Assembly: GCA_020746875.1 (NCBI GenBank)
Contig: JAGTJL010000004.1
Coordinates: 2,914,001 to 2,978,000 of the forward strand
DNA: 64,000 bases
Reading direction: 5' to 3'
Origin: Rhexocercosporidium sp. MPI-PUGE-AT-0058
Lineage: Eukaryota > Ascomycota > Leotiomycetes > Helotiales
The notes under the pieces were generated by a model that saw nothing but the letters and a program-made list of their open reading frames with translations, did not search any database and was not told where the DNA came from. Positions 1 to 49,955 of this stretch are shown in pieces. Each line of letters opens with the position of its first letter. Within the stretch, counting starts at the first letter, position 1. The translations under genes and the position numbers were made by a program.

Positions 1-2158
<2,158 letters not shown>

Positions 2159-35666: not shown

Positions 35667-36344
35667 TCAATGACTTGCCTTCTCTGCCTCTTTTGTCTTC
35701 CTCGCGATTGTGGCATCGATTCGTTGGAAACACGCGAATCCCTCAATTAGACAGCTTCCAATCCACTTCCACCAGAGCGATGTTCCCCGTGTCACTCCAT
35801 GCTTCCTCAGCTTCGTTCGGTCCAGGAAGAAAGATTCCAGAAGATGTATACCAACAAATGGCCATGTCATCTTTCGTACCATCCACACAAACATCTCGGG
35901 ACCACCAGGATAAAACGACAAAGCTACATCGTACAGCCAAGTCCCAGGTATAATCAGCCGCTGGAATATGCATGCGAGCCAGGTAGCTAAGAGGATCAAG
36001 AAGAGGATAACTTGGACGGGCTTTCTTGGAGGATCGTATTCGGTGAGTCGAATGGAGGAGATGTCGAGAGCAGCTCGTGCTTCGCGGTCCATTTCAACAC
36101 TTCTTGTTCGCGCCTCGGACCAGGACTTCATAGGTGGATCGAAGCGAATCGTGTGAGTTTTGCCGTCGGTTGTCTTGAGTGTCATGGAAGAGAGGGTAAT
36201 CGAGGAGATGATGGCCCCATGAGCGGCTCGTGAGGACAGTTTGGAGTAGTGTTGCAGGTAGTAGGAGAGAGATTCGGCGTGGTCTGCATTCATGTGTTTG
36301 ATGATGCGCGCTTTGGCAGCTTCGTCTTGAGGGGTGTCTGCCAT
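35667..36344 (-). CDS. DUF2470-domain integral membrane protein
   Basis: Single exon, 225 residues from ATG 36344. Residues 10-100 form the DUF2470 fold, related to the C-terminal part of haem-utilisation/pyridoxamine-oxidase-like proteins: an early HMNADHAESLSYYLQHY motif and the later IRFDPPMKSWSEAR. Membrane segments follow (VQVILFLILLATWLACIF and a second hydrophobic stretch around MVRKMTWPFVGIHLLESF). Fungal members with this architecture are widespread but their role is unknown. The His in HMNADH is the conserved feature. The gene is divergent from the aminotransferase, with 389 bp between the starts. Confidence 0.85.
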   Translation of the reverse strand: MADTPQDEAAKARIIKHMNADHAESLSYYLQHYSKLSSRAAHGAIISSITLSSMTLKTTDGKTHTIRFDPPMKSWSEARTRSVEMDREARAALDISSIRLTEYDPPRKPVQVILFLILLATWLACIFQRLIIPGTWLYDVALSFYPGGPEMFVWMVRKMTWPFVGIHLLESFFLDRTKLRKHGVTRGTSLWWKWIGSCLIEGFACFQRIDATIARKTKEAEKASH

Positions 36345-36733
36345 TGCGTAGCCGATGGGGGTCGAATGTTGATAGATTGTGGTCGGGCTGTCGTGGAACG
36401 TATATCTTCAAGTCTGCGAGGGGAGCAGAGGAGGGAAGAGGAGAGGTTGGGATCGCTGCAAGCTTGAGTCTGTAATTGTGTGTTGATGTTGATCCTTGAC
36501 TTCCAACCTCGGCACGAAACACCAACGACCGCACCCGGCGTGTGACCCTGCCCGCCGAGCCCTGCTACTGGACATTGCATGGCTCACCAAAGGTGGGATT
36601 TGGATAGATCTAAAAGCAATTGAACGTCCTGGGAGTATATCTTCAAAATCGGGTTCCGTTTATTTGCTGTGTTGTTACCTTTATTTCAAAGCAACGCGGA
36701 ACAGCTGTTTGCTGTCCTCATTCTAGAATCATC
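36345..36733. promoter_or_regulatory. Divergent promoter region, DUF2470 gene / aminotransferase
   Basis: 389 bp between two divergent ATGs. The 15-bp motif shared by other cluster promoters was not found here by eye. Confidence 0.4.
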
Positions 36734-38437
36734 ATGTCCTCCCCCGACACTATGCATGTTGACTCCGAGAGCTCTCAAAGTAGAGTAGGTTCATCAAACG
36801 GCGCAAGCCCTGTCGAGGCTCTCCTAGCTGCCCTTGGAACCGCGCAACAGGAGTACTCTCTGTCTAACCCGGAAAGTCTCAAGGCGCACAATGAGGCGTG
36901 TTCAGACTTCCCGGGAGGGAATACCAGAACGGTTCTACATGCGAGCCCTTTCCCAATCACTTTTAGTTCGTCATGCTCCCTGTGAGATGGTCTGCAGTAC
37001 TCGTTGTTGACTTCGCCTAGGGAGTGGGAAGGGGGCAGAGCTGACCAGTATCGACGGCAAGTTGTACGTTGATTTCTTGGGCGAGTACACGGCTGGTATC
37101 TACGGACATTCGAACGAGAAGATTGCATCTGCTGTTGCCGAGGCAATGAGTAAGGGTTGGAACTACGGAGGGCCAAACATGTACGAGAGGGAGCTTGCAA
37201 GGAAGGTAAGCTGACAACTTTGAGGTTTCTCTTGCATTCATGATCACATGACTTGTCACCTTGAAATGGGGGTGAAGAGATCTTGTTGGAATGCACCCTT
37301 GTATGGGAAGCCGTAGGCTGTTCGTCTTTCTTCGTCCGAGCTCTATCTCTTTACAGTCAGATCTCTTGCTAAAGTCAATAGGTAACTCAAAGGTTCTCTT
37401 CATCCGGGATCGAGCTCGTTCGCTTCACAAACTCTGGCACGGAGTCGAATACAATGGCATTGGCAGCCGCCACTGCATTTACGAAACGCAAGAAGATCTT
37501 AGTCTTTAAGAACGGCTACCACGGCGGAACTCTTTCCTTTCCAGACTCTCTCCATCCGATCAACACAAATCTTCCGCACGACTTCGTTCTCGCTCCTTTC
37601 AACGACATCGAAGGCACGAAGAATGCCTTGTCTTTCCTCCCCCAGAACTCACTTGCTGCGATTATCGTTGAAGGTATGCAAGGGAGTGGGGGATGTATTG
37701 TGGGAGACCCCAAGTTTTTGAAGTTCCTCAACACCACAGCACACCAACTCGGAGCTCTATTCATCATGGACGAAGTGATGACTTCTCGACTGGCATACAA
37801 CGGTCTCTCGGCTTCCCTTGGACTAAAACCTGATCTCGTCACCTTAGGGAAATGGGTCGGAGGTGGGATGACCTTCGGTGCTTTTGGAGGCAGGAAAGAC
37901 ATCATGAGTATGTTTGATCCTCGGAATGGGACCCTAGGTCATTCCGGCACATTCAACAATAATGTCATCACGATGGCGGCTGGATGTTGCGGAATGGAAA
38001 TCTATAACGAACACGAACTAAAGAGATTGAACACGCTCGGTGATGATCTTCGCCAACGTATCGAAAATCTTCTCGTCGAATATGGGATCAGGAGCTTCAA
38101 GCCGAGATCAAATGCGGCAAGTTCAGCAACACAAGCAAACGAGCTCGAATGCCCCTTCAATGGGATAGTCCCGAATGGCAAACGAGTACCTTCATCTCCG
38201 CTCCAGAAGAACTCGATGGGTGTCATGGGCCTAGGAAGTATGCTTAATATCCACTTCTATGGCCCGAGTGAGAAGACCCTCAAGGCCTTGTTCTGGCATC
38301 ACATGCTCGACTGTGGCATCTATATGGCGCCGAGAGGATTCGTGGTTCTCAATTTGGAATTGACAGATGAGCATGTCGGTCGTTTTGAGGAAGTGACACG
38401 AAAATTCATCATCAGATACGAAGATGCATTGAGATGA
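36734..38437 (+). CDS. Class-III PLP aminotransferase (glutamate-1-semialdehyde-aminomutase-like)
   Basis: A PLP enzyme moving an amino group to or from an aldehyde or keto substrate. Exons 36734-36965, 37021-37205 and 37382-38437 give 490 residues. Intron 1 is assigned to a weak GTTCGT donor because it restores the expected PFPITF-RSGKG-AELTSIDG join. Family marks: DFLGEYTAGIYGHSN, FTNSGTESNTMALAAA, FIMDEVMTSRL, and the PLP-binding lysine in LVTLGKWVGGGMTFGAFGG; the late segment is GHSGTFNNNVITMAAG. Fungal relatives are often found in catabolic or secondary-metabolite loci. Here it borders a P450, a phenol-type hydroxylase and a ring-cleavage dioxygenase, so it may act on an amino-substituted substrate or product of that route (inference). 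Confidence 0.88.
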
Positions 38438-38508
38438 GATACAAGCATCTACTCGCTACGCTCAACTACATCTTTAGCTGTTTCATTTTCTTCATACAGG
38501 TATCACTC

Positions 38509-40293
38509 TCATTCATACTTCTCAAAAACCTCTTTCTCCGCCTTTCCAAACTCTCTCAAAATTGACTCCTTCCTCGTTCCCCCTCTAACCTGGACATCGC
38601 ATCCAAATAGGTGAGCGCAAGTCAAGAAGCCCTCACTGTAAGCCGTTACTGGGTCAACATCCACATCCTCGTTCTTTACCCTCACTCCATTCTCATCCTT
38701 GCCAGGGAGGATTTCAAATGCCCACAGCAGCTTTGCAATCCCCAAGAACAAATTCTGCTCTGCGAGATGGATGCCAGGACATAATCGTCGTCCTGAACCG
38801 TACCCATAGTGGTCTCGAGCGTCGTAGTCAGCCGATGCTGCAAGCTCTGGAGCGAGTTTCGTCACGCCAAGGTAATGGTCTGGGTCGAAGACTTCGGGGT
38901 TGGGGAATCTTTTTGGGTCATGATGAAGACCCCAAGCATTGATGAGAATGGTAGTTCCTTTAGGTATAAGTTTCCCATCAACCCAGTCATCTGTTCTTGT
39001 CAATACAATTCTTCATTTCAGAAAGAAGATCATACCTTCAGACACGCAATGTGGAAATGCCAGCGGTACAACCGGTCTCCATCTCATCGCTTCCTTTACT
39101 GTCGCCGCTATATATGGCAACTTCTCATAGTCATCCCAGACTGGGCTCCTGTCTTCACTAACCACGTTGTCAATTTCCTTGTGTGCTTTCCTCATCACTT
39201 CAGGCCATCTGGTCATCGCATGCATGAAAGCAAGGATGATTGACGAGCTTGTATCACTTCCACCTTCCATCATCGTCCCACCTAGGAAATACAATTGGTG
39301 TCGAGTGAACCCCAACTTCTCATTCTGTTCCAACACTTTATCCATGAAAGACCCTCTGAACACATTCTTGGATCGGCGAGTGTCCACAATGTCCGTGTAT
39401 TGTTTGTACAGCTCGTTCATCTCCTTACTCACATCCTTGGCTCGTGATTTCCAGTTCCCGAGGAAACTTTCAGGGATGTAGTGAAGAGCTGGGATGATGT
39501 CGACTGGGGGAGTGTTGCCCGTCTCCATTACCTTGGACCAGTTTTCCATCAACGCATACAATTTCGTCATATGTGGTGTATCTGTTCGTGGAGTACGAAT
39601 GCCGAAGACTTTCGCAGATCAGTATATTAATTTCTCATAAACTGAAAAATTAGGTACTCACGCAAACTCATAGCAACCGAATTACTGAACCTCTTCGGAT
39701 GATCCATGTGTTTCCCCGGCGTAGCCAAGAAGTCTCTACACATCTGCACAGCCTCCGCATCAACCAATTTCGTATGCTCATTCACTACCATACTCTCCAT
39801 GAAGTGTTGGTGGATGACCCGTCTGTACGCTCGCCAAACATTGCCGTAATCCATCACGAGAACATGGTCACCGCCAGTGATGAGATTGTTGCCAACGTAA
39901 GAAGGCGGTCTGTTGCTGTAGATATTGGATTTCTTGTCGATTAGGTTCTTGATCAGACGCCGATCAGTCAGAACGACCATTGTTCCGGGTCCGAGTTTGA
40001 GGGAATATATTCCGCCGTATTTATGTGCCCATTCAGTGAATCTGAAAGGTCAAAAAAGAACTTCGGTACTGGAAGATATGAAACTTACTTTAGATGCGCA
40101 TTTTTCAAGGGCATCTGATGAAGATTCCCCAGCAGCGGAATAGTTGGTGGGCCTGGTCTTTGTGAGCTTCTGCTTGTCTGTTAGGATCTTCAACCTTACC
40201 TGGTGGAAAGTCACGGCCTCTCCATCCTACTGTCAAGATCAAGTATATGAGACCAACGAGGGCACCAAGGCCAAGAAGAACGAGGACTGCCAT
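38509..40293 (-). CDS. Cytochrome P450 monooxygenase
   Basis: ER-anchored haem monooxygenase. Five exons (40293-40200, 40152-40089, 40041-39662, 39608-39036, 38990-38509) give 530 residues. The order is an N-terminal anchor (MAVLVLLGLGALVGLIYLIL), the Pro-rich hinge DFPPGPPTIP, the I-helix oxygen-binding segment MMEGGSDTSSS, the K-helix ExxR in KEAMRWRP, and the haem loop HYGYGSGRRLCPGIHLAE with its Cys ligand. All catalytic features are intact. It resembles fungal P450s that hydroxylate small aromatic or polyketide substrates, but the substrate is not readable. It is convergent with the aminotransferase (72 bp apart) and lies next to the FAD hydroxylase, so it is probably part of the same pathway. 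Confidence 0.92.
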
Positions 40294-40579
40294 TGTTACT
40301 TTACAAAAGTTGCACAAGTCTATGCTGCTTCGACGAGGATCATTGGAGGCCAGGAAGCTTTTATCCTCATCTTCTTGTACTACACCCAGGACTCCGTACC
40401 CCGGATGTCCAGCACTAGCTCCAATCACAAAAAAGCGGTCGAATGCTGATTGGAAGGAGGAATGGACCTGCGGGATGGACATGGCGGGGGTGCGGGTAGT
40501 TCGAAGCTACACAAGGCACACTAGGGAATCCCGAACTCAATTCATACGCAAATTCCTCAATTGGATTACTAGCTACACC
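40294..40579. promoter_or_regulatory. Promoter side of the P450 gene
   Basis: 286 bp between the P450 ATG and the end of the FAD monooxygenase gene. No copy of the shared 15-bp motif was found by eye. Confidence 0.35.
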
Positions 40580-42587
40580 CTAAATACTCAAGACTGATTT
40601 CAGAATATCGCGGAGCTTCACTTCAGGATTCGTTATGATCCCTTGGGACCGCCAAGCAATAAATCTGTCCGGCCGAACAAGAACACATCCATCTTCGGCT
40701 ATCTCCCTCCTCCTAGCCCAGTCAAAGTACACATCCTCATAATCCTGTCCCCAGCCGATAGAGTGTGCATTGATCTCTATGCCTAACTCCTTTGCTACCT
40801 TGCCGGCACTTTCTTTCCATGCTGCTCCACCAATTCCAGTCAAGAGACAGAATTGCCCATGGCCAGCGAGATCAATCGTGGAGAATTTCTTGCCGGGCAA
40901 TTTGGTATTTAACCAGGCGTGCGGTAATCTGCTTCCAGGATAGGTGGTGATTTGGTGTTCAAGGACAGGATCCTCCGGGAGAGGTGGTCGTGGTCCTTCG
41001 TCTGCCAGATAGATTGCCGACGAAGTGTAGCGTTGGTTCATCTCGACGCCCACACCATGAAACTCATGTGCAGTATTGTTGACGGCTTTTCGGAGTCGTT
41101 CTCGTCGAGCTACACCTTCTGGCGTGGCTTCAGAGAGTTCTGCGAAGTGCTTCTGCCGAGCTTTCAATGAGGGGTCAAGCATTCCGAGTGCCTCCCAGAC
41201 ATGTACATGATCCCTGAGGCCATCGTTGGCGCGAGTGACAACAGTTGTTCCGACAGGCTGACGCTCGAGACTGAAAGAGCCAAGAAGTGCAGAGCCAGAT
41301 TTTCCCTTCATGACATATGCTATTTTCCAAGCTAGGTTGTATGCATCTTGGATGCAGGTATTTGATCCTAGGCCGTTGATAGGAGGGTGGCGATGAACGG
41401 CATCACCGAGGCAGAAACTACAGAATTAGCCAAATGTCAAAGACTAGCTGAAGAGCATAGCTTACATGTTGCCCTCTGAATAGTATTCGGCCACGGTTTC
41501 GTTGATGAACCACTTTGAAATTCCCAGTATCTCAACCGGGATCGAGTCATCTCCTACGATCGTCTTGACACACTTGAGATATTCCTCGTGGGAAGGATTG
41601 AAGTCGACACCAGCCTCTGGATGGGGCAAGAAGATGAACATCCACCTAACAAATCAGCGTTGTTCGATACATACAAGTCACAACTTACTCTTTCCAGGGC
41701 TTGACCATGCGAGCAATGCAGCTCCAATTGAACGAGGAATTCTCTTCATCCGGTCTCATTACCCAATGCAAGTTCCCAACTCGATGCTCGACAATATGTG
41801 AGAGGTCAACTTTCACCAACACGTTGATCGCCAAACCCTGACCGGGCTTCTTGATGAGTGGAATCTTCAACTGTCTCAGAACTTGGCTCCTGGCTCCATC
41901 ACACCCGAACAGGTATTTTGACCGTATTTGGTAGATTGCTTTCGTGAGATTGTCTTGCAGGTTGCTTAGTATCATACCATTTGGCTCATGCTCGAAGGAG
42001 AGAAAGCTGGTATCGAAGCGGCACGAGAAACCATTGTGGGTTGCATGTCCAACAAGGATAGGTTCGAGCAGAGTTTGAGGAACATCGTAATGATTGCAAG
42101 GGCTGGCAGCATCATAAGCTCCCTGTTAAAATTAGAAGATATCTTTGATACATTGCTCCAAAACTCACTGCTCGTGCGGGGTCATTTCCCCAAGAATATA
42201 TCCTTGCAAACTCCTCACCAGCCATACTTCGACACCATCTTGTATGTTGCATGGAGTTGCGTGTTACTGCAACCTTCAAAAGTTCTTCTTGCAGCCCAAT
42301 ATCTCGCAGGCATTCGAGAGCTGCCATATTGGTGATATGTGCTCTTGGTGTGTCCGCTGTGCTGGGCGTAGCCGCCACCATGATCCCCTTCAGCCCTGCG
42401 AGATTTCAGGATCATTCTCGAAAATCTGTTGTGTTTACTTACCATGCTGGGCCAAGAAACATGCCAGTCCTGCTCCAGCTGGACCAGCTCCTATGATTAG
42501 AAGATCGGTCTCAACGATTGCAGTTGTATTTTTTCCCGTCGGCATTGATGCACCATTAATGTATCCATTGCTCACTGTTTCGGCCAT
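40580..42587 (-). CDS. FAD-dependent aromatic hydroxylase (phenol 2-monooxygenase / dichlorophenol-hydroxylase type)
   Basis: A class-A flavoprotein that adds one oxygen to a phenolic ring using NAD(P)H. Five exons (42587-42443, 42395-42169, 42122-41689, 41645-41466, 41417-40580) join to 607 residues. The dinucleotide-binding GxGxxG is in LLIIGAGPAGAGLACFLA (residues 33-38), the DG fingerprint in LFGCDGARSQVL, and the FAD-ribityl GD motif in FCLGDAVHRHPP. A C-terminal thioredoxin-like dimerisation part follows (GKKFSTIDLAGHGQFCLLTG), as in TfdB/PHHY-type enzymes. It is transcribed divergently from the extradiol dioxygenase (582 bp between starts), the arrangement expected if its catechol-type product feeds that enzyme. 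Confidence 0.92.
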
Positions 42588-42835
42588 AATTGCTATAAAG
42601 TATCCGTCTCACGATAACATTCTCGGAGACCCCGACAACAGAAATATATCGACATATAAATCTTTTTCTCCCCCTCTCCGTGTCGGGGTCACATCAGCCT
42701 TGGCCATGCTAGTCTTCCCTCGCTAAGGTAGTTACGAGTTGTCAATGGTCGTCAGGAGCTCCGGGCAAACTTCATTTATTCGCCCCTCCCCCGCATTTCA
42801 ATGCAGCCACTTCATCAATCTGCCCGTCGCGGGTG

Positions 42836-42857
42836 CGGATCATCTTCATATGATCCG
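42836..42857. promoter_or_regulatory. Perfect inverted repeat, candidate operator
   Basis: Arms CGGATCAT and ATGATCCG with a 6-bp spacer, in the divergent hydroxylase/dioxygenase promoter. CGG ends pointing inward are typical of dimeric Zn2Cys6 sites, although the spacing is unusual. Confidence 0.4.
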
Positions 42858-42903
42858 TTCAGCTCGATCACATCCGGACACTAGAAACCACAGCCCCTGG
42901 TTT

Positions 42904-42918
42904 GTCCGCAATATCCGC
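42904..42918 (-). promoter_or_regulatory. Shared promoter motif, copy 1
   Basis: GTCCGCAATATCCGC; its exact reverse complement occurs at 47109-47123 before the FAH gene. It contains two CGG half-sites as a direct repeat (CGG-N6-CGG). Confidence 0.55.
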
Positions 42919-43169
42919 TCTTACACCCCACATGGGAGTCCCACATGCACCTCCAAGCTCGAGGGCTGAAGTCTTACAAGAGCGCGATGCTTTAGGCAAA
43001 CGGTCGGAAAGGTGGAGGCTGATGGCGGCATTGAGAAGTTGGGTATATATCGCCGGTAGATGCATCCTTCTCCTTCAAACGGCAAAGGACTAATCAACCG
43101 TTACTGGCATCCCCATATCAGTTACACGAACACCATCATCCGCAAGCAAATATCTCGATATCTGCCACC

Positions 43170-44173
43170 ATGTCTCCGTCGGCTTCGAAACAGAAGATCA
43201 ACCTCGTCCGAATCGCCCATGTTTATTACACACACAAGAACCTAGATGCTGCCAATCAATTCCTCCTCGACTTTGGCTTCAGTCCCTGCCAAACCTCCGA
43301 CGACCGAATATACTATCGTGGGTATGGAACAGAACCCTTTGCAGTCTGTGCGTCAAAAGGAACGGAGGACAAGTTTGGAGGAGCAGCCTTTGTAGTCGAA
43401 TCAATGGAAGACCTAGAACTAGCAACGTCTCTCCCAGGTGCCACCCCGATACACGACTCAGATGCTCCAGGAGGTGGGAAGAGGGTCACATTCTACGAGC
43501 CAATCGACAACTGCCCATGGCATCTTGTCTACGGTCAAACACCCGTCGAGATTGCAGAGACTTTCCCAGAGTTGGCATACAATTTCCCTACGCACAAGAA
43601 CCGACCGGTGAATAAGACACAGCGATTCAAGAAGGGACCTGCACCAATTCACAAGATTGGACATTTTGGGCTTTGCGTAACGGACTATAAGAAGGCTTTC
43701 GAGTTCTACACCACCAACTTCAACTTCAAACCTACGGAGTTGGTCTACGCCCCAGATACGAAGGAGGACATCACCACATTCTTGCATCTGGATCGTGGTT
43801 CGGAATGGGTAGATCACCACTGTTTCTTTTTCTTCGAGGGTCCCAAATTCCACGTCCACCACTCTAGCTTCGAGATTTTCGACTTTGATATCCAGATGTT
43901 GGGGCATAATTGGTTGGTGGAGAAGAAGTATGAGAACTGCTGGGGAGTTGGCAGACATGTCATGGGTAGTCAAATTTTTGATTATTGGTTCGATCCCAGT
44001 CGCTTCATCATGGAGCACTATGTCGATGGGGACTTGGTGAATGATGAGACTCCTATCAACAGAACTCAGGCTGCTCCTGATAATTTACATGTTTGGGGTA
44101 AGTCAATCGTCTATGACTGTAGAGCCATGCTGACAATTCAGGCCCTGAGGTCCCAGCAACCTTCTTGCAATGA
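43170..44173 (+). CDS. Extradiol ring-cleavage dioxygenase (type I, catechol 2,3-dioxygenase-like)
   Basis: A VOC-superfamily Fe(II) dioxygenase cleaving a catechol next to its hydroxyls. Exon 1 (43170-44097) and a 32-bp exon 2 (44142-44173) give 319 residues. There are two beta-alpha-beta modules, an N-terminal one (VRIAHVYYTHKNLDAANQFL) and the catalytic one. Likely metal ligands are His165 (HKIGHFGLCVTD), His230 or 231 (KFHVHHSSFEIFD) and Glu282 (SRFIMEHYVDGD), the 2-His-1-Glu triad of this family. The small last exon supplies the family ending GPEVPATFLQ, which confirms the splice. It is more like metapyrocatechase/dihydroxybiphenyl dioxygenases than 4-hydroxyphenylpyruvate dioxygenase, which has a different C-terminus. 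A fungal gene of this type beside a phenol hydroxylase is notable. Confidence 0.88.
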
Positions 44174-44606
44174 TTATGAGGCTCCGAGGATCAACAGAAG
44201 TAGAGTTGCATTGTCTTTCTATGCCGTTATTTTGGAGTAGGAGTTGGTATTTTGTATTTAGTTTGTGTTGCTCATGCTTTTCCATGGCTTTGGTTTGGGA
44301 TTGAAGAGCGGAACAATGTTCGATTACGAATATCAAAGCAACGAAATTTTTGTCTGTGATCCAGGCACTTTTTTTGAGAGAATTGAATCACAGAATGATT
44401 ACGAACTTGTTTAGAAGCTCCACTCACATCTTGATCTGCGGCGAAGACAGGTGGTGGGGTCAGCACATCGCGGGGTAATTTTCATTAGTTACCAGGGTTT
44501 ACTCTTTTTGTACCGGGGCAAAAATTACCCCTCATCTTAGCTCTTATACGGAGGAGTTCCCCAGTAATTCGACCGCAACCTCCTATGCAATAGTCTGTGC
44601 GAAAAT
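44174..44606. promoter_or_regulatory. Region before the cluster regulator
   Basis: 433 bp with no gene. No copy of the shared 15-bp motif was found by eye. Confidence 0.35.
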
Positions 44607-46867
44607 ATGGATGCTGTGAACGTTTCTCCCGCCCCGTCAAGGCCCACACTTGCATGCGAGAGATGCAAAAGGTTGACTCCAAAAGTGTTTGTTTGTTATA
44701 TGAAGCTAATGACTCGACAGGAGAAAGATCAAATGGCAAGGCAGACAACTCTATAGCCAAGGAACTTTCGCTAAACTCTTCAAGTGATCGATCGCTACCC
44801 AAGTGTCAGACATGCCTCAAGACATCCCGAGACTGCTCGTACCCGCTCATATCTAATAAGCCTGGGCCAAAACCAGGTCAGATTCTAGACAGACCAGATA
44901 CATCAATTTGCTAATCGTAACAGGTGCCCATCAACACAAAAAAGCAAGGCATGACTCTGCCTCCAATGAGAATGTATATCAACGGGATGGCCGTCACGCT
45001 CCTGTTCGTGTTGTCTCCGAAGAACCTACTACAGCGACATCGCCTCCATATGTAGAGCAAAGAACGGAAAGGTCTCCTTCCAGAGGTGTTCCTTTGTCTC
45101 AGCTGTTGCAACTCTCCCATGAACCATTTCCCCAGCACACAACTGGAATACCTCCACAAGGATCTCGAAGTCGAAATCATGACTTGGTCATTCAGAGCAT
45201 CTGCAATGCCTTTGAGATCTCGCCCGAAATGTACCAACAGCTGTGAGAACCTTTCTTTAGACATTGGAAAGGTAATAGCTGATTGCTGCAGGATGAATGC
45301 GTACTTCGAGAACATGACTTCCTTCTCCCTCTTTCACCGACCCTCTTTCGATGACAAGCTTTCCAAGATATCCTCTCCTGTCCAGTTACAAGCTCTTGTA
45401 GCCTCGATGTTTAGTTTCTCAGCTCGCTTCGCCGCTAATACACACCCTCCAAACCCCAGGAATATTTCTCCACGCAAATTCTACGATCTCGCGGAAAGAC
45501 TCACGAATAATGCCGTTAAAGACTGCGATGACGAGGTATTTCCCTTGTGTCTCCTGCAATCCCTGATTCTTGTAAACTTCCAGCAACTTATTGAAGGAGT
45601 GCGAGGTCGGGCATGGAGATCTATTGGGACTTCTGTACGCATCGCCTATGAACTTCAACTGCACTTGGTAGATAAGCCTACACCGACCCACCGAAACAGC
45701 CCAGACACCTCGTTCGATGAAGAAAAAAGACGAGCTTGGTGGGCTATCTGGGAGTTCGATGTCTTTGCCAGCACGATCCGCCGTCTTCCAACTGCAATCG
45801 ATTGGAAAGAGAACGAAACCTGGCTTCCTATCGATGACGAACTGTGGTTCGCGAACCGCTGTGTGCGAAGCTGCAAACTTGATCCTGATCCTGCCGTGGC
45901 ATGGAAATTGCTCCAGAATAGCGGCAATAAAAGCCCAAAAGCTTGGTTTATTGTTGTCAATTCTCTGATGCGATGTGCTCATCTTCTCTCCTACCCACAA
46001 GCGTACTCTGCAGCTTCGTCAGTCGAGGCTGGCGAAGTACCACAGGGTCTTGATATCCTCGCGAACTCTCTCTACTGTTTATCAGCTGCTCTTCCGACTG
46101 AGATTGTCTACCGAGGCGAGTTCCTTAAGTTCTCACCGGGATCTCTCCACACAGACGCCGCAAAGCACGGCATTCATGTCATGATCCAGTTATCTCGCTT
46201 TATGATCAATCACTTTCAAGTCTTCGATAGCACAGCCAGGAAGCTTGGAGAAAAAATTTCTCCGTCCAATTCAGCGGCTCTGACATCCCTCGACCAGGTT
46301 GCTTGGAACCACTACTTGAACGCAGCTTCCGAGATTGTCAGTTTGATCAGGAATTGTCCACCAAGCCACGTGCAACATGCGAATCCTTTCCTTGCAAGTA
46401 CGATCTGGCTAGCCGCTGCTGCTCAAGTAGCCTCGAAGAGCTTCGGTTCTGCACTCGTGGACAGCCGTGTTGCCGAGTCAAATCTAGACGTCCTACAAAC
46501 CAATCTCAATGCCTCAGTATCTTTCTGGGGCGTTTCAGATACCCTCAAGATCAAATTAGAAACTTTAGAGCGCAAGTTGAAAACCTTTGCAGAGACGAGC
46601 AGATCGCATTCTGTTTCTACTTATCAACCGCTACCTCCCAGTCGAGTCTCCCATGGGGCTGAGGAGATCTCGGCCCACCCCTCTCATCCCCAAGCGCCGA
46701 ATCTGCGGCCACCAAATTTGTGGACAGACGCAAACGAAGGATATGCACAAAACATCTGGGCGGACTCTCGATTGGATCTTGTCAATTCCTCCCTGGCCCC
46801 TGATATAGATCTAAACCTATGGGGGTGGGGAATGGACGAGCTGATGAATTATAGTGGGATTGAATAA
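44607..46867 (+). CDS. Zn2Cys6-type transcription factor of the aromatic cluster, zinc cluster damaged
   Basis: Likely regulator of the surrounding catabolic genes. Exon 1 (44607-44671) ends in CERCK. Two acceptors are possible. Using GACAG/GAGAAAG gives CERCKRRKIK followed by Trp and a frameshift. Using the next AG (exon from about 44689) keeps the frame but drops the RKIKC segment. Then come KCQTCLKTSRDCSYP, the second half of the cluster, and exons 44924-45242 and 45292-46867 with a normal fungal TF body (MNAYFENMTSFSLFHRPSF, then RRAWWAIWEFDVFASTIRRL). Length is about 700 residues. With either splice the third cysteine is absent, so DNA binding may be impaired. The body of the gene shows no other break. 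Confidence 0.75.
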
Positions 46868-47249
46868 TTCGTCCGCTGAGCTGACGGCTACCAATTCGGC
46901 TTCAGATTATGCTCGTGGACTTGGTGATGTGACATCAGAATAGCAATACGTACACTCGCCACGACTTTTCATTCGTCCAATGAAGATAAGCGGACAAATT
47001 CTGCTCTTGGTCAACATGGGCGGGCGAATACAATGTGGGGTATCCTCTATTGTCCCGCCCCCTCCTATCCTCGGGTCATACTTACCAATATGTCCACATC
47101 AACTAGCTGCGGATATTGCGGACATTCTGGACGAGCTAGTTCTTACTCATAGACCCTGCAGATATCAACATCGATTGATCTTCTTGTTTTGAAGAGCCTG
47201 TACATACATCTTTACTTCACTTCATCAAGTATCTCGAAGCCAGACATAA
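46868..47249. promoter_or_regulatory. Promoter of the FAH-family gene
   Basis: 382 bp with repeated GTCCGC/GCGGAC half-motifs (46874-46879, 46990-46995, 47118-47123) and the complete shared 15-mer at 47109-47123. No gene is present. Confidence 0.5.
47109..47123 (+). promoter_or_regulatory. Shared promoter motif, copy 2
   Basis: GCGGATATTGCGGAC, the exact reverse complement of 42904-42918, 127 bp before the FAH-family start codon. Confidence 0.55.
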
Positions 47250-48197
47250 ATGATCATGAGTGTCAAAAGGTTCATTCGCTTTGTAGATGAGAGCCAGGGT
47301 ACTCGCTATGGAGAGCCCTCAGCATCGGACGTCAAGGGAAGTTTAGAAGGTAAATTGGTCGATGTCCTATCTGGAGATCCATATGGTGGTTTCACAAAGA
47401 CAGGAAAACAAGCAACCGTCAAACAAGTGAGTCACTTCTTTCCTATGCGCTAACCGTGCGAAAAACATTACTAACAGGTACAGCTTCTGTCTCCTCTACA
47501 ATCAACACCAATATTTGAGTGTATTGGTCTCAATTATGCTCATCACGCGAAAGAAGCAAACGTAAGTCTGAGCACGTTTCAATGAGACCTGTCTAACCAT
47601 GCCCAGCTCACACCCCCGTCCTACCCAGTCGTCTTCACCAAACCTGCGGATGCTCTGGCAGGACCATACGAAGACATCCCTATTCATCCAGAAGCGCAGT
47701 CTCAACTCGACTACGAAGGCGAACTCACGGTCATCATTTCTCGTGACGGCAAAAATATCCCCGAGTCCGAAGCTCTCTCCTACGTTCTAGGATACACGGC
47801 TGGAAACGACGTCTCAGCTCGAAATTTCCAGATCCCAGCTTCCATCAGTGGGAATCAGTTCGGCTACGCCAAGTCATTTGACAAGTTCGCACCCATTGGC
47901 CCCTGTGTACTTCTTGCTGATGGGGTGGATCCTCAGAAGTTGACGTATACGGCCAAGGTCAATGGACAGATTAGACAGAAAACTGGCACGGATGACATGA
48001 TCTGGACCATCAAGCAAATCATTGCTCATTTAAGTCGTGGGACGACGTTGAGGAAGGGAACGGCAATCATGACGGGTACACCGAGTGGAGTCGGTTTGTT
48101 CATGGAGCCGAAGGGGTTCTTGAAGGATGGTGACGTTGTTGAGGTTGATATTGAGGGGATTGGAGCTTTGAGGAATAAGGTTGTTTTTGAGAAGTGA
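47250..48197 (+). CDS. Fumarylacetoacetate-hydrolase-family protein (2-hydroxy-dienoate hydratase/isomerase-like)
   Basis: A metal-dependent enzyme acting on 2-oxo/2-hydroxy-dienoate acids made by ring cleavage. Three exons (47250-47426, 47478-47561, 47607-48197) give 283 residues, the size of the bacterial HpcE/FAHD1-like group and shorter than true fumarylacetoacetase. Metal ligands are visible in QLDYEGELTVII (E-x-E) and NDVSARNFQ (Asp). The lid/substrate loop TGTPSGVGLFMEP near the C-terminus is a family hallmark. A second in-frame ATG follows two codons later. With the extradiol dioxygenase upstream, a role after ring opening is the natural inference; hydrolase, hydratase or isomerase activity cannot be told apart by eye. 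Confidence 0.9.
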
Positions 48198-48442: not shown

Positions 48443-49955
48443 TCACAGCCTCTCGACCCAAACCCTCTTATCCTCCCACTGTTCCCTCCACCCAACAGCA
48501 GCACACAGCCTAGGCAAAACCTGAAAATCCTCCCACGGAATATTTGCCAACTCAACAACCTCCAAGGGAGCAGTCTGCCGCCCAAGCAATACGGATTGTT
48601 TGATTTGACCTTGCTCTTGCGCCGGAATCGAACTCAGGTTCAGATACCGCAGAGTAGATGCTCGTGTGTGCCTCCTTTTATCTGACTCTGCGACAGAATT
48701 TAAACGATGGCGCAGCCTACATAGTGCAATAGCATGCTTCATGGGCTCCAATATCGCTTCATGCTTGGCTTCTTCTTTGGTCGGTTCCTGCTTGGGGCAT
48801 GACCGGTACTCGTCTTGGAACTCGTGTGCGGGGTGAAGAAGCATGCTCTCGATATCGTACATGTCGAGGTTTCGTCCAACGCTCAACTCTTCCAGCTGGC
48901 CACACAATTTCTGGAGATGTGGGATGTTGCTTGGCCCCATGTTCGACATGCTGAGGTCGAGAGAACGGAGGGTCCGAGGTGCCTGGGAAAGGAAAGTGTT
49001 GATCTGTCTTTCACTGAGTGGTGCTTCGTCGGCGATATAGCCTGCTTTGAGAACCCCCAAAGAATCTTTCACTGCTGGGTGAGAAATCAAGAAAGTGACG
49101 AGCTCGTCCAGCTCCAGGTTTCGACATCCCCAGATATTTAGGTGCGTCAGTTTCGCCGATGATGGAATTGATGAAAGAGCTTCCACTGTCACACAAGTCC
49201 TGCTCACATCCAAGATCCTCAATTTCCTCATACTTGGGAGCAAAGACTCCAGAACTCCAGGGATGTGCAACCCACCCGCCCCGGAAGTATCGGTGAACCT
49301 CAAACTTCTGATCGAGCTCGGCAAATCATCTGGTAAGACATCGAATGCACCTCTCAACATCTGCGTCTTGTCATTCAATTGACTGACATCCAGTGTGAGT
49401 GATTCTAGATCTGGTAGTCCAAATATAAGTTTGTGCAACATTCCGACGTCCTTGACATGACCAAGTGATAATCGAAGATCCTGTAGTCGAGGGAGACGAG
49501 ATATCTTGTCATGAGTGAGGTTATACCCGCAAAGAGCAGATCGAGTGATGTCGAATGTCCGGACTAAAGGGCTCAATTCAGGATTTTTTTCTAAGGCGTC
49601 GAAAAACCGGGTTATTGACGAGACCTTCGGAGTTCGAATGTTGGGCTCCCGGTAAACCATGAACAAGGCGATGTCGTGAAATCGATGAGAGGTTTGAAGA
49701 CATGATAGCAAACTATTTGGTCGACTGGAAATATCGCCTGCAGATTGTTAGAGGTAATCTAGTATAGGAGTGACTTTACGTACCTGGCAAGGCATGAGGA
49801 ATATCCCAGCCTTTTCTCCTTGCAGGTGCGGCGACGTAGAGTAGGATTCTGGTTAGAAGTTCTGTGGGAAGACGCTCAAGGGGGGATGAGCTGGCAGCAT
49901 GAGATGGTGCCCCTTTCACAGTGGACACCCAGTCCATGAATGATATGACAGCCAT
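48443..49955 (-). CDS. F-box / leucine-rich-repeat protein
   Basis: A probable substrate adaptor of an SCF ubiquitin ligase. Exon 1 (49955-49784) begins MAVISFMDWVSTVKGAPSHA and holds an F-box-like helix (SPLERLPTELLTRILLYVA). Exon 2 (49737-48443) continues with SSRPNSLLSCLQTSHRFHDI, the second half of the F-box, then degenerate LRRs (LPRLQDLRLSLG, LRILDVSRTCVTVEALSSI, LTHLNIWGCRNLELDEL, LRSLDLSMSNMG). Total 488 residues. The chosen ATG is the first true one; the frame is open further upstream without ATG. The target is unknown. Confidence 0.82.

Follow-up and report, generated by a model that had tools for sequence, protein, structure and literature searches.

A probable fungal gene cluster for extradiol (meta) cleavage of a substituted phenolic compound in Rhexocercosporidium

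Meta-cleavage of aromatic rings is the textbook bacterial route. In the portions of the literature consulted, fungi are described as using intradiol cleavage, or extradiol cleavage only rarely. Our analysis of a 64,000-nucleotide stretch from Rhexocercosporidium sp. MPI-PUGE-AT-0058 (contig JAGTJL010000004.1, positions 2,914,001 to 2,978,000; hereafter "the window") concerns six adjacent genes at window positions 36734..48197. These genes probably make up a catabolic route in which the fungus degrades a substituted phenolic compound through extradiol (meta) ring cleavage.

A reading of the sequence alone had placed in this interval a class-III aminotransferase, a cytochrome P450 (P450), a flavin adenine dinucleotide (FAD)-dependent hydroxylase, a type I extradiol dioxygenase, a Zn2Cys6 regulator and an enzyme of the fumarylacetoacetate hydrolase (FAH) family. 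That gene set is borne out, as all six spliced models are intact and the expected Pfam domain is found in each. The genes are separated, from left to right, by 71, 286, 582, 433 and 382 bp. The proposal that an extradiol module is clustered here together with a regulator of its own likewise stands: the module recurs in the same genome, its genes are linked in other fungi, it has bacterial counterparts, and its promoters carry a nearly unique site.

The dioxygenase and its partner proteins

The dioxygenase gene (43170..44173, + strand; exons 43170-44097 and 44142-44173) encodes a 319-residue protein with the vicinal oxygen chelate (VOC) fold. Judged by its residues, this is an extradiol enzyme of type I: its C-terminal module has a predicted 2-His-1-Glu Fe(II) site, accompanied by a His/His/Tyr set. 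The Fe ligands H165, H231 and E282 and the second-sphere residues H217, H263 and Y272 are invariant in 20 aligned sequences, 5 of them bacterial, and again in 38 close relatives, 2 of which are metagenome entries. The claim that catalytic residues are intact therefore holds for the dioxygenase. The roles of these residues are assigned as in BphC.

As modeled by AlphaFold from exon 1 (pLDDT 86, pTM 0.85), the protein has the two-module fold of catechol 2,3-dioxygenase and homoprotocatechuate dioxygenase. Foldseek listed 50 matches to this model (E values of 1e-20 to 2e-16; TM-scores of 0.70-0.78 by query length), headed by a Novosphingobium glyoxalase-fold protein and followed by catechol 2,3-dioxygenases, LapB and homoprotocatechuate 2,3-dioxygenase. 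The curated NCBIfam models for HpaD, catechol 2,3-dioxygenase and BphC gave 54, 39 and 34 bits against cut-offs of 321, 320 and 366, respectively, for a query with the last intron read through. Because every curated equivalog cut-off was missed, we describe the protein as a type I extradiol enzyme without an assigned specificity.

A homologue search retained 1075 relatives out of 1332 candidates, and the named ones among the best 120 are all fungal. In a tree built by a quick method (114 rows), the fungal sequences group together, and two paralogues from the same genome lie on long branches beside a bacterial sequence, L017. Because of these two placements, the tree settles neither a single nor a multiple origin.

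The hydroxylase gene (40580..42587, - strand) has five exons and encodes 607 residues that match both FAD_binding_3 and Rng_hyd_C of Pfam. Sequence comparison assigns the protein to the HbpA/TfdB class of FAD-dependent aromatic hydroxylases. Its best PDB matches are 2-hydroxybiphenyl 3-monooxygenase (HbpA; 453 bits), with which residues 25-604 align, and 2,4-dichlorophenol 6-monooxygenase (387 bits). PDB entries under the names phenol hydroxylase and phenol 2-monooxygenase (1foh/1pn0 type) score 52-59 bits, and the earlier label "phenol-type" should be dropped. A solitary paralogue with 43% identity is located at C2:1469302-1471113, and the genome scan gave no dioxygenase or FAH match near it.

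The FAH-family gene (47250..48197, + strand; exons 47250-47426, 47478-47561 and 47607-48197) encodes 283 residues, and the last exon matches FAA_hydrolase (PF01557, E = 1e-61). Its best PDB matches are HpcE-type decarboxylase/isomerases; L-2,4-diketo-3-deoxyrhamnonate hydrolase and the acylpyruvase FAHD1 are also matched. Seven NCBIfam scores were listed for this exon, all below cut-off. Naming of the genes by NCBIfam was abandoned, since none of the scores listed reached a curated cut-off. The P450 gene (38509..40293, - strand) has five exons and encodes 530 residues (Pfam p450, E = 7e-87).

The regulator gene (44607..46867, + strand) has five exons and encodes 688 residues with Zn_clus and Fungal_trans domains. 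The six-cysteine Zn2Cys6 motif can be read solely if a GC-AG intron at 44736-44784 is removed. When combinations of up to two GT-AG or GC-AG introns were tried, exactly one solution emerged. We rejected the possibility that the regulator is a pseudogene, as the frame break in the zinc cluster is explained by this intron and one intact splice solution exists. The DNA-binding domain would escape any gene finder limited to GT-AG introns.

The aminotransferase gene (36734..38437, + strand; exons 36734-36965, 37021-37205 and 37382-38437) encodes 490 residues. The class-III assignment of the sequence-only reading agrees with the Pfam match (Aminotran_3) and can be refined, because the protein matches the beta-phenylalanine aminotransferase VpAT (PDB 4ao9) with 364 bits. 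This is roughly twice the score of about 177 bits for glutamate-1-semialdehyde aminomutase, the latter obtained with a query that contained a small splice error. In the alignment with VpAT, the pyridoxal phosphate lysine and both substrate arginines are in register. These arginines are presumably R41 and R398, in a numbering that assumes a 20-residue tag. By these sequence features the enzyme is beta-phenylalanine-aminotransferase-like.

On the left, the cluster is bordered by a DUF2470 gene (35667-36407, - strand), and on the right by an open frame (48443-49747, - strand) that appears F-box/LRR-like by eye. Far from the cluster, an open frame at 556-1602 (+ strand) looks glycerol kinase-like by eye.

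Recurrence of the gene set and a candidate operator

The 62.7-Mb assembly (60 contigs) was scanned for further copies of the cluster genes. The dioxygenase has just two additional loci in this genome, on contigs C45 and C58. At the first (C45:1965234-1977248; L100 and L007), genes for an FAD hydroxylase, a P450, a regulator, an FAH-family protein and the dioxygenase follow one another within 12 kb. Compared piece by piece, the hydroxylase there is 34-46% identical to that of the window, with 46% over the main piece. By eye, the C45 regulator has C2H2- and Zn2Cys6-like parts. The order at the second locus (C58:2419643-2429418; L009 and L010) is regulator, P450 (detected as two short pieces), dioxygenase, FAH and FAD_binding_3 enzyme. 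The wider region C58:2417005-2429418 includes a Fungal_trans regulator, and an MFS/TRI12-type transporter gene is situated further out.

The FAH gene is about 0.9 kb from the dioxygenase gene at C45, about 0.8 kb at C58, and 3.1 kb in the window, where the regulator gene lies between them. From 19 exon matches, 13 FAH loci were counted genome-wide, so that by chance one would fall inside 5 kb (12 kb) of any particular gene in about 0.2% (0.5%) of cases. The corresponding values, taken from first-look candidate counts, are 5% (11%) for P450 genes and 2% (5%) for FAD_binding_3 genes. Given these chance levels, the pairing with FAH at all three loci is strong evidence of association and that with P450 is weak evidence. 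Both paralogous loci resemble the window in having the dioxygenase, FAH, P450, FAD_binding_3 enzyme and regulator, and C45 also shares a promoter element described below. They differ from it in lacking the aminotransferase and in their P450s and regulators, and the FAD enzyme at C58 is distant.

For operator discovery, the intergenic regions of the cluster were scanned for CGG pairs. A 16-bp sequence, GCGGATATTGCGGACA (GCGGA-N4-GCGGA), forms a perfect inverted pair, with one copy in the divergent promoter region between the hydroxylase and dioxygenase genes (42903..42918, - strand) and the other 125 bp ahead of the FAH start codon (47109..47124, + strand). Exactly these two copies occur in the 62.7 Mb, both in cluster promoters, and a reversed-pattern control gave none. 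The 12-bp core of this element occurs seven times genome-wide (control, one), and three of these copies are in promoters of dioxygenase clusters. One of the three, at C45:1975954-1975965, lies where the FAH and dioxygenase genes diverge, in a 911-bp intergenic region with ~1e-4 copies expected. Because the motif was found inside the cluster, the pair in the window is post hoc, and it is the C45 copy that serves as an independent test.

The remaining four exact 12-mers were considered as further regulon sites and are treated as chance occurrences, since no dioxygenase or FAH gene is near them, as judged by eye and from the genome match lists. Three of these (C1:1373669, C1:3455971 and C5:899015) are inside open frames, and one (C23:1355074) is in no listed frame. 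The candidate site GCGGA-N4-GCGGA is probably where the Zn2Cys6 factor of the cluster acts to control the genes for the hydroxylase, the dioxygenase and the FAH-family enzyme.

The earlier reading had named synteny of the dioxygenase with the FAH and hydroxylase genes as a check. FAH and FAD_binding_3 genes are near the dioxygenase at three of three loci in the same genome, the dioxygenase and hydroxylase are linked by a contig-length proxy in 8 of 12 fungal strains, and both partners are present at 35 of 80 bacterial loci (the best 80 of 573). The fungal sample comprised the 12 strains present in both the best-120 dioxygenase list and the best-120 hydroxylase list. As a proxy for linkage, we used equal longest-contig values in the protein listings for two homologues of one strain; where contigs reach several megabases, a match of this kind says little about any single strain. 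The dioxygenase and hydroxylase values are equal in Phialocephala subalpina, Venustampulla, Patellaria, Rhizodiscina, Podospora didyma, Madurella fahalii, Cercophora LCS_1 and Rasamsonia. Locus tags are consecutive in Cercophora (OQA88_5771/5772) and Rasamsonia (VTN96DRAFT_3652/3653).

The bacterial loci (L017-L096) are the best 80 of 573 confirmed dioxygenase relatives, and their dioxygenases are 32-41% identical to the fungal one. Neighbors were sought within 7 kb on each side, several loci being incomplete, with hidden Markov models that combined the cluster protein with four or two bacterial sequences. In raw counts, FAH was found at 59 loci, an FAD hydroxylase at 39, and both at 35. Like the window, these loci combine a dioxygenase relative with, often, FAH or hydroxylase genes; unlike it, they vary in gene order and lack the fungal regulator. 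In Pseudomonas loci L024 and L025, the dioxygenase is 40%, the HbpA/TfdB-class hydroxylase 42%, and the better FAH copy 39-41% identical to the window proteins. Both loci are divergent clusters in which FAH genes and VOC dioxygenases are each present twice, along with the hydroxylase.

Plasmid-borne relatives were also inspected. From 117 matching records, 20 were listed and 6 opened, and an annotated FAH gene is within 6 kb of the dioxygenase relative in 4 of the 6; the two Streptomyces loci are without one. On a Gemmobacter fulvus plasmid (L011), the dioxygenase relative is found among molybdopterin hydroxylases, RidA and malonic semialdehyde reductase, a context suggestive of an N-heterocycle pathway.

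Proposed pathway and competing explanations

In the proposed route, the P450 would ready, or funnel, the substrate, the HbpA/TfdB-class enzyme would hydroxylate it ortho to an existing phenol, and the type I Fe(II) dioxygenase would open the ring next to the resulting diol. The FAH-family enzyme would act next: the compound formed by ring fission, most likely an acid of the 2,4-dioxo (acylpyruvate) type derived from a trihydroxybenzene, would be hydrolyzed to a pyruvate-type acid and a carboxylic acid. The Zn2Cys6 factor would switch on the hydroxylase, dioxygenase and FAH genes via GCGGA-N4-GCGGA. The aminotransferase would be at most an accessory, removing a beta-amino group from the substrate side chain.

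A trihydroxylated ring is favored by the FAH partner, because extradiol cleavage of such a ring yields a 2,4-dioxo acid. The FAH partner fits catechol, which the sequence-only reading had implied as the ring-fission substrate, less well. HcdC of Pseudomonas mandelii is concluded, in the portion of the report consulted, to hydrolyze the ring-cleavage product of 3-(2,3,5-trihydroxyphenyl)propionate (PMC6222606). Arthrobacter KpiD, another FAH-family protein, is proposed to split formylpyruvate, although the cited passage offers this as a proposal only (PMC7356986). The riboflavin/lumichrome, 4-hydroxypyridine and 2-isopropylphenol pathways were considered as guides to the substrate and set aside: as far as the source portions show, they place FAH-family genes beside ring-cleavage genes, yet their gene sets differ. 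For the lumichrome pathway, the portion consulted reports that the FAH protein played no part in the assays.

Several observations weigh against the proposed route. The dioxygenase is only 15-19% identical to the solved structures that it resembles, and its bacterial relatives are not known to have an assigned function. The FAH protein is a putative hydrolase, as its family also includes isomerases, decarboxylases and hydratases. An aldehyde dehydrogenase, a hydratase, an aldolase and a transporter are all missing from the six genes. The dioxygenase and hydroxylase are on contigs of different size in 4 of the 12 fungal strains (Coniochaeta 2T2.1, Thozetella, Apodospora and Cephalotrichum), and the bacterial FAH counts are raw ones. 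C58 gives weaker evidence than C45: the FAD enzyme is only 31% identical and its Pfam match spans two stops, which may reflect introns or decay, and the adjacent open frame fits no Pfam family. The P450s of the three dioxygenase loci in this genome are not close paralogues.

The operator, too, has points against it. Its core is absent from the C58 stretch and from upstream of the aminotransferase, P450 and regulator genes. Furthermore, four copies of the 16-mer with one mismatch are present elsewhere in the genome: one on C1, which is among the 12-mer sites, and others at C59:387088 (inside an open frame), C5:247020 and C8:1046860.

A narrower form of the proposed route, to which we lean slightly, takes the unit to be the hydroxylase, dioxygenase, regulator and FAH genes, with the aminotransferase, and possibly the P450, as chance neighbors. 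The missing operator ahead of both genes fits this form. Moreover, no aminotransferase match is near the other two dioxygenase loci, the closest paralogues being at C8:577394 and C58:675018, and an aminotransferase hit was obtained at just 1 of the 80 bacterial loci. By the linkage proxy, aminotransferase and dioxygenase values are equal in none of four strains (Phialocephala, Verruconis, Mycoblastus and Sporothrix). The 71-bp gap between the aminotransferase and P450 genes is uninformative on co-regulation, because it separates two 3' ends.

Speaking against chance are the equal aminotransferase and hydroxylase values in four of eight strains (Mollisia, Halenospora, Tricladium and Phlyctema) and the presence of a P450 at all three loci in this genome, though P450 genes are common. 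The values are unequal in Leptodontidium, where the mismatch is uncertain as the hydroxylase cluster spans two contigs, and in Cadophora DSE1049, Hymenoscyphus albidus and Phialocephala; Elasticomyces elasticus, present in both the hydroxylase and aminotransferase lists, was excluded from the eight strains because its tags belong to different assemblies. The aminotransferase is the least secure link of the cluster and is associated with it in some Helotiales only. Its integral membership, as proposed by the sequence-only reading, is weakly supported at best.

A plain catechol-type meta pathway appears unlikely. There, a 2-substituted phenol would be converted to a 3-substituted catechol and then to a yellow 2-hydroxymuconate-type ketone, and the FAH-family enzyme would replace an alpha/beta hydrolase or act as a hydratase or decarboxylase. 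HbpA carries out just such a conversion of a 2-substituted phenol to a 3-substituted catechol, and it is the best characterized match of the hydroxylase. Catechol 2,3-dioxygenases and homoprotocatechuate dioxygenase are structural neighbors of the dioxygenase, and the HpcE-type enzymes that best match the FAH protein point the same way. However, the cluster has neither an alpha/beta hydrolase nor a dehydrogenase. The characterized Pseudomonas enzymes are divided on this issue. HcdB is active on catechol and methylcatechols and inactive on 1,2,4-benzenetriol, which supports the catechol route and counts against a trihydroxylated ring, whereas HcdC extracts failed to decolorize the meta-cleavage products of plain catechols and the trihydroxyphenylpropionate product is concluded to be the substrate (PMC6222606, in the portion consulted).

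Least probable is a tailoring cluster of specialized metabolism, in which ring opening would serve to make a product, for instance a furanone, or a pyridine or picolinate ring where an amine takes part: biosynthetic clusters commonly pair a P450 with a Zn2Cys6 regulator, but the six genes include no polyketide synthase, nonribosomal peptide synthetase or terpene synthase, and the FAH partner and the recurrence in bacteria and fungi indicate catabolism. Possible precedents in the source portions consulted are the biosynthetic cluster of the fungus Allantophomopsis lycopodina, whose ring-cleavage enzyme AlfB (278 aa) is classed by the authors as extradiol (PMC12105029), and picolinates that arise from meta-cleavage products and ammonium (PMC6222606).

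Comparison with known systems

The catabolic cluster proposed here was described by the sequence-only reading as unusual and perhaps undescribed. This is supported with caveats. The first part agrees with a 2025 review, which rates enzymes of the extradiol kind as less frequent among fungi (PMC12388069), and no description of a fungal type I extradiol cluster was recognized among the open-licence papers listed, as judged by titles and the starts of abstracts. The portions consulted do mention extradiol cleavage in fungi. Gentisate cleavage in fungi is counted as extradiol (PMC8283699), and intermediates in flavus point to a gallate dioxygenase of the extradiol kind (PMC10512348). Low catechol 2,3-dioxygenase activity was measured in two fungal strains (PMC7247547), and such activity is cited for Fusarium and Graphium, the gene being not amplifiable in Scedosporium HDO1 (PMC12366324). 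One survey of fungal clusters was anchored on phenol 2-monooxygenase and "aromatic ring-opening dioxygenase" (PMC10735191).

The cited portions report catechol 2,3-dioxygenase activity in fungi without a gene (PMC7247547, PMC12366324). The cluster provides a family of genes together with the enzymes that partner it and a candidate operator, which makes the question of extradiol cleavage in fungi testable. It also exposes a gap in how such genes are sought. In A. niger, 17 ring-cleavage genes were picked for deletion, according to the portion consulted, by PF00775, PF02900 and PF04444 (PMC10512348), a choice that misses the VOC-fold family PF00903.

We tentatively propose a broader picture, in which many Pezizomycotina carry a type I extradiol regulon (hydroxylase, dioxygenase and FAH under a Zn2Cys6 factor at GCGGA-N4-GCGGA) that is absent from the maps of fungal aromatic catabolism consulted in the literature. 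This regulon, with a paralogous cluster that shares the operator core, would be the source of the orphan fungal catechol 2,3-dioxygenase activities. In this lineage, the beta-phenylalanine-type aminotransferase may have been recruited to extend it to a beta-amino aromatic acid.

Because bacterial counterparts exist, the module is not without precedent. The hcdABC operon of Pseudomonas mandelii 7HK4, which acts in 7-hydroxycoumarin degradation, is alike in its adjacent FAD hydroxylase, type I extradiol dioxygenase and FAA-hydrolase-family protein. It differs in being, as far as the consulted portion describes it, a bacterial three-gene operon without a P450, Zn2Cys6 factor or aminotransferase (PMC6222606; the comparison is by gene families). 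Compared with an operon of this type, the hydroxylase, dioxygenase and FAH genes of the window are clustered and have a promoter site in common.

In architecture, the closest analogue is the fungal gentisate cluster, for example that of Scedosporium. Gentisate 1,2-dioxygenase is a cupin-fold enzyme. The gentisate cluster, in the portion of the report consulted, combines a P450, a monooxygenase, a ring-cleavage dioxygenase, fumarylacetoacetate hydrolase and a Zn2Cys6 regulator, much as the window does; it differs in employing gentisate 1,2-dioxygenase and in having a major facilitator superfamily (MFS) gene, whereas the dioxygenase of the window is a VOC-fold type I extradiol enzyme (PMC8283699).

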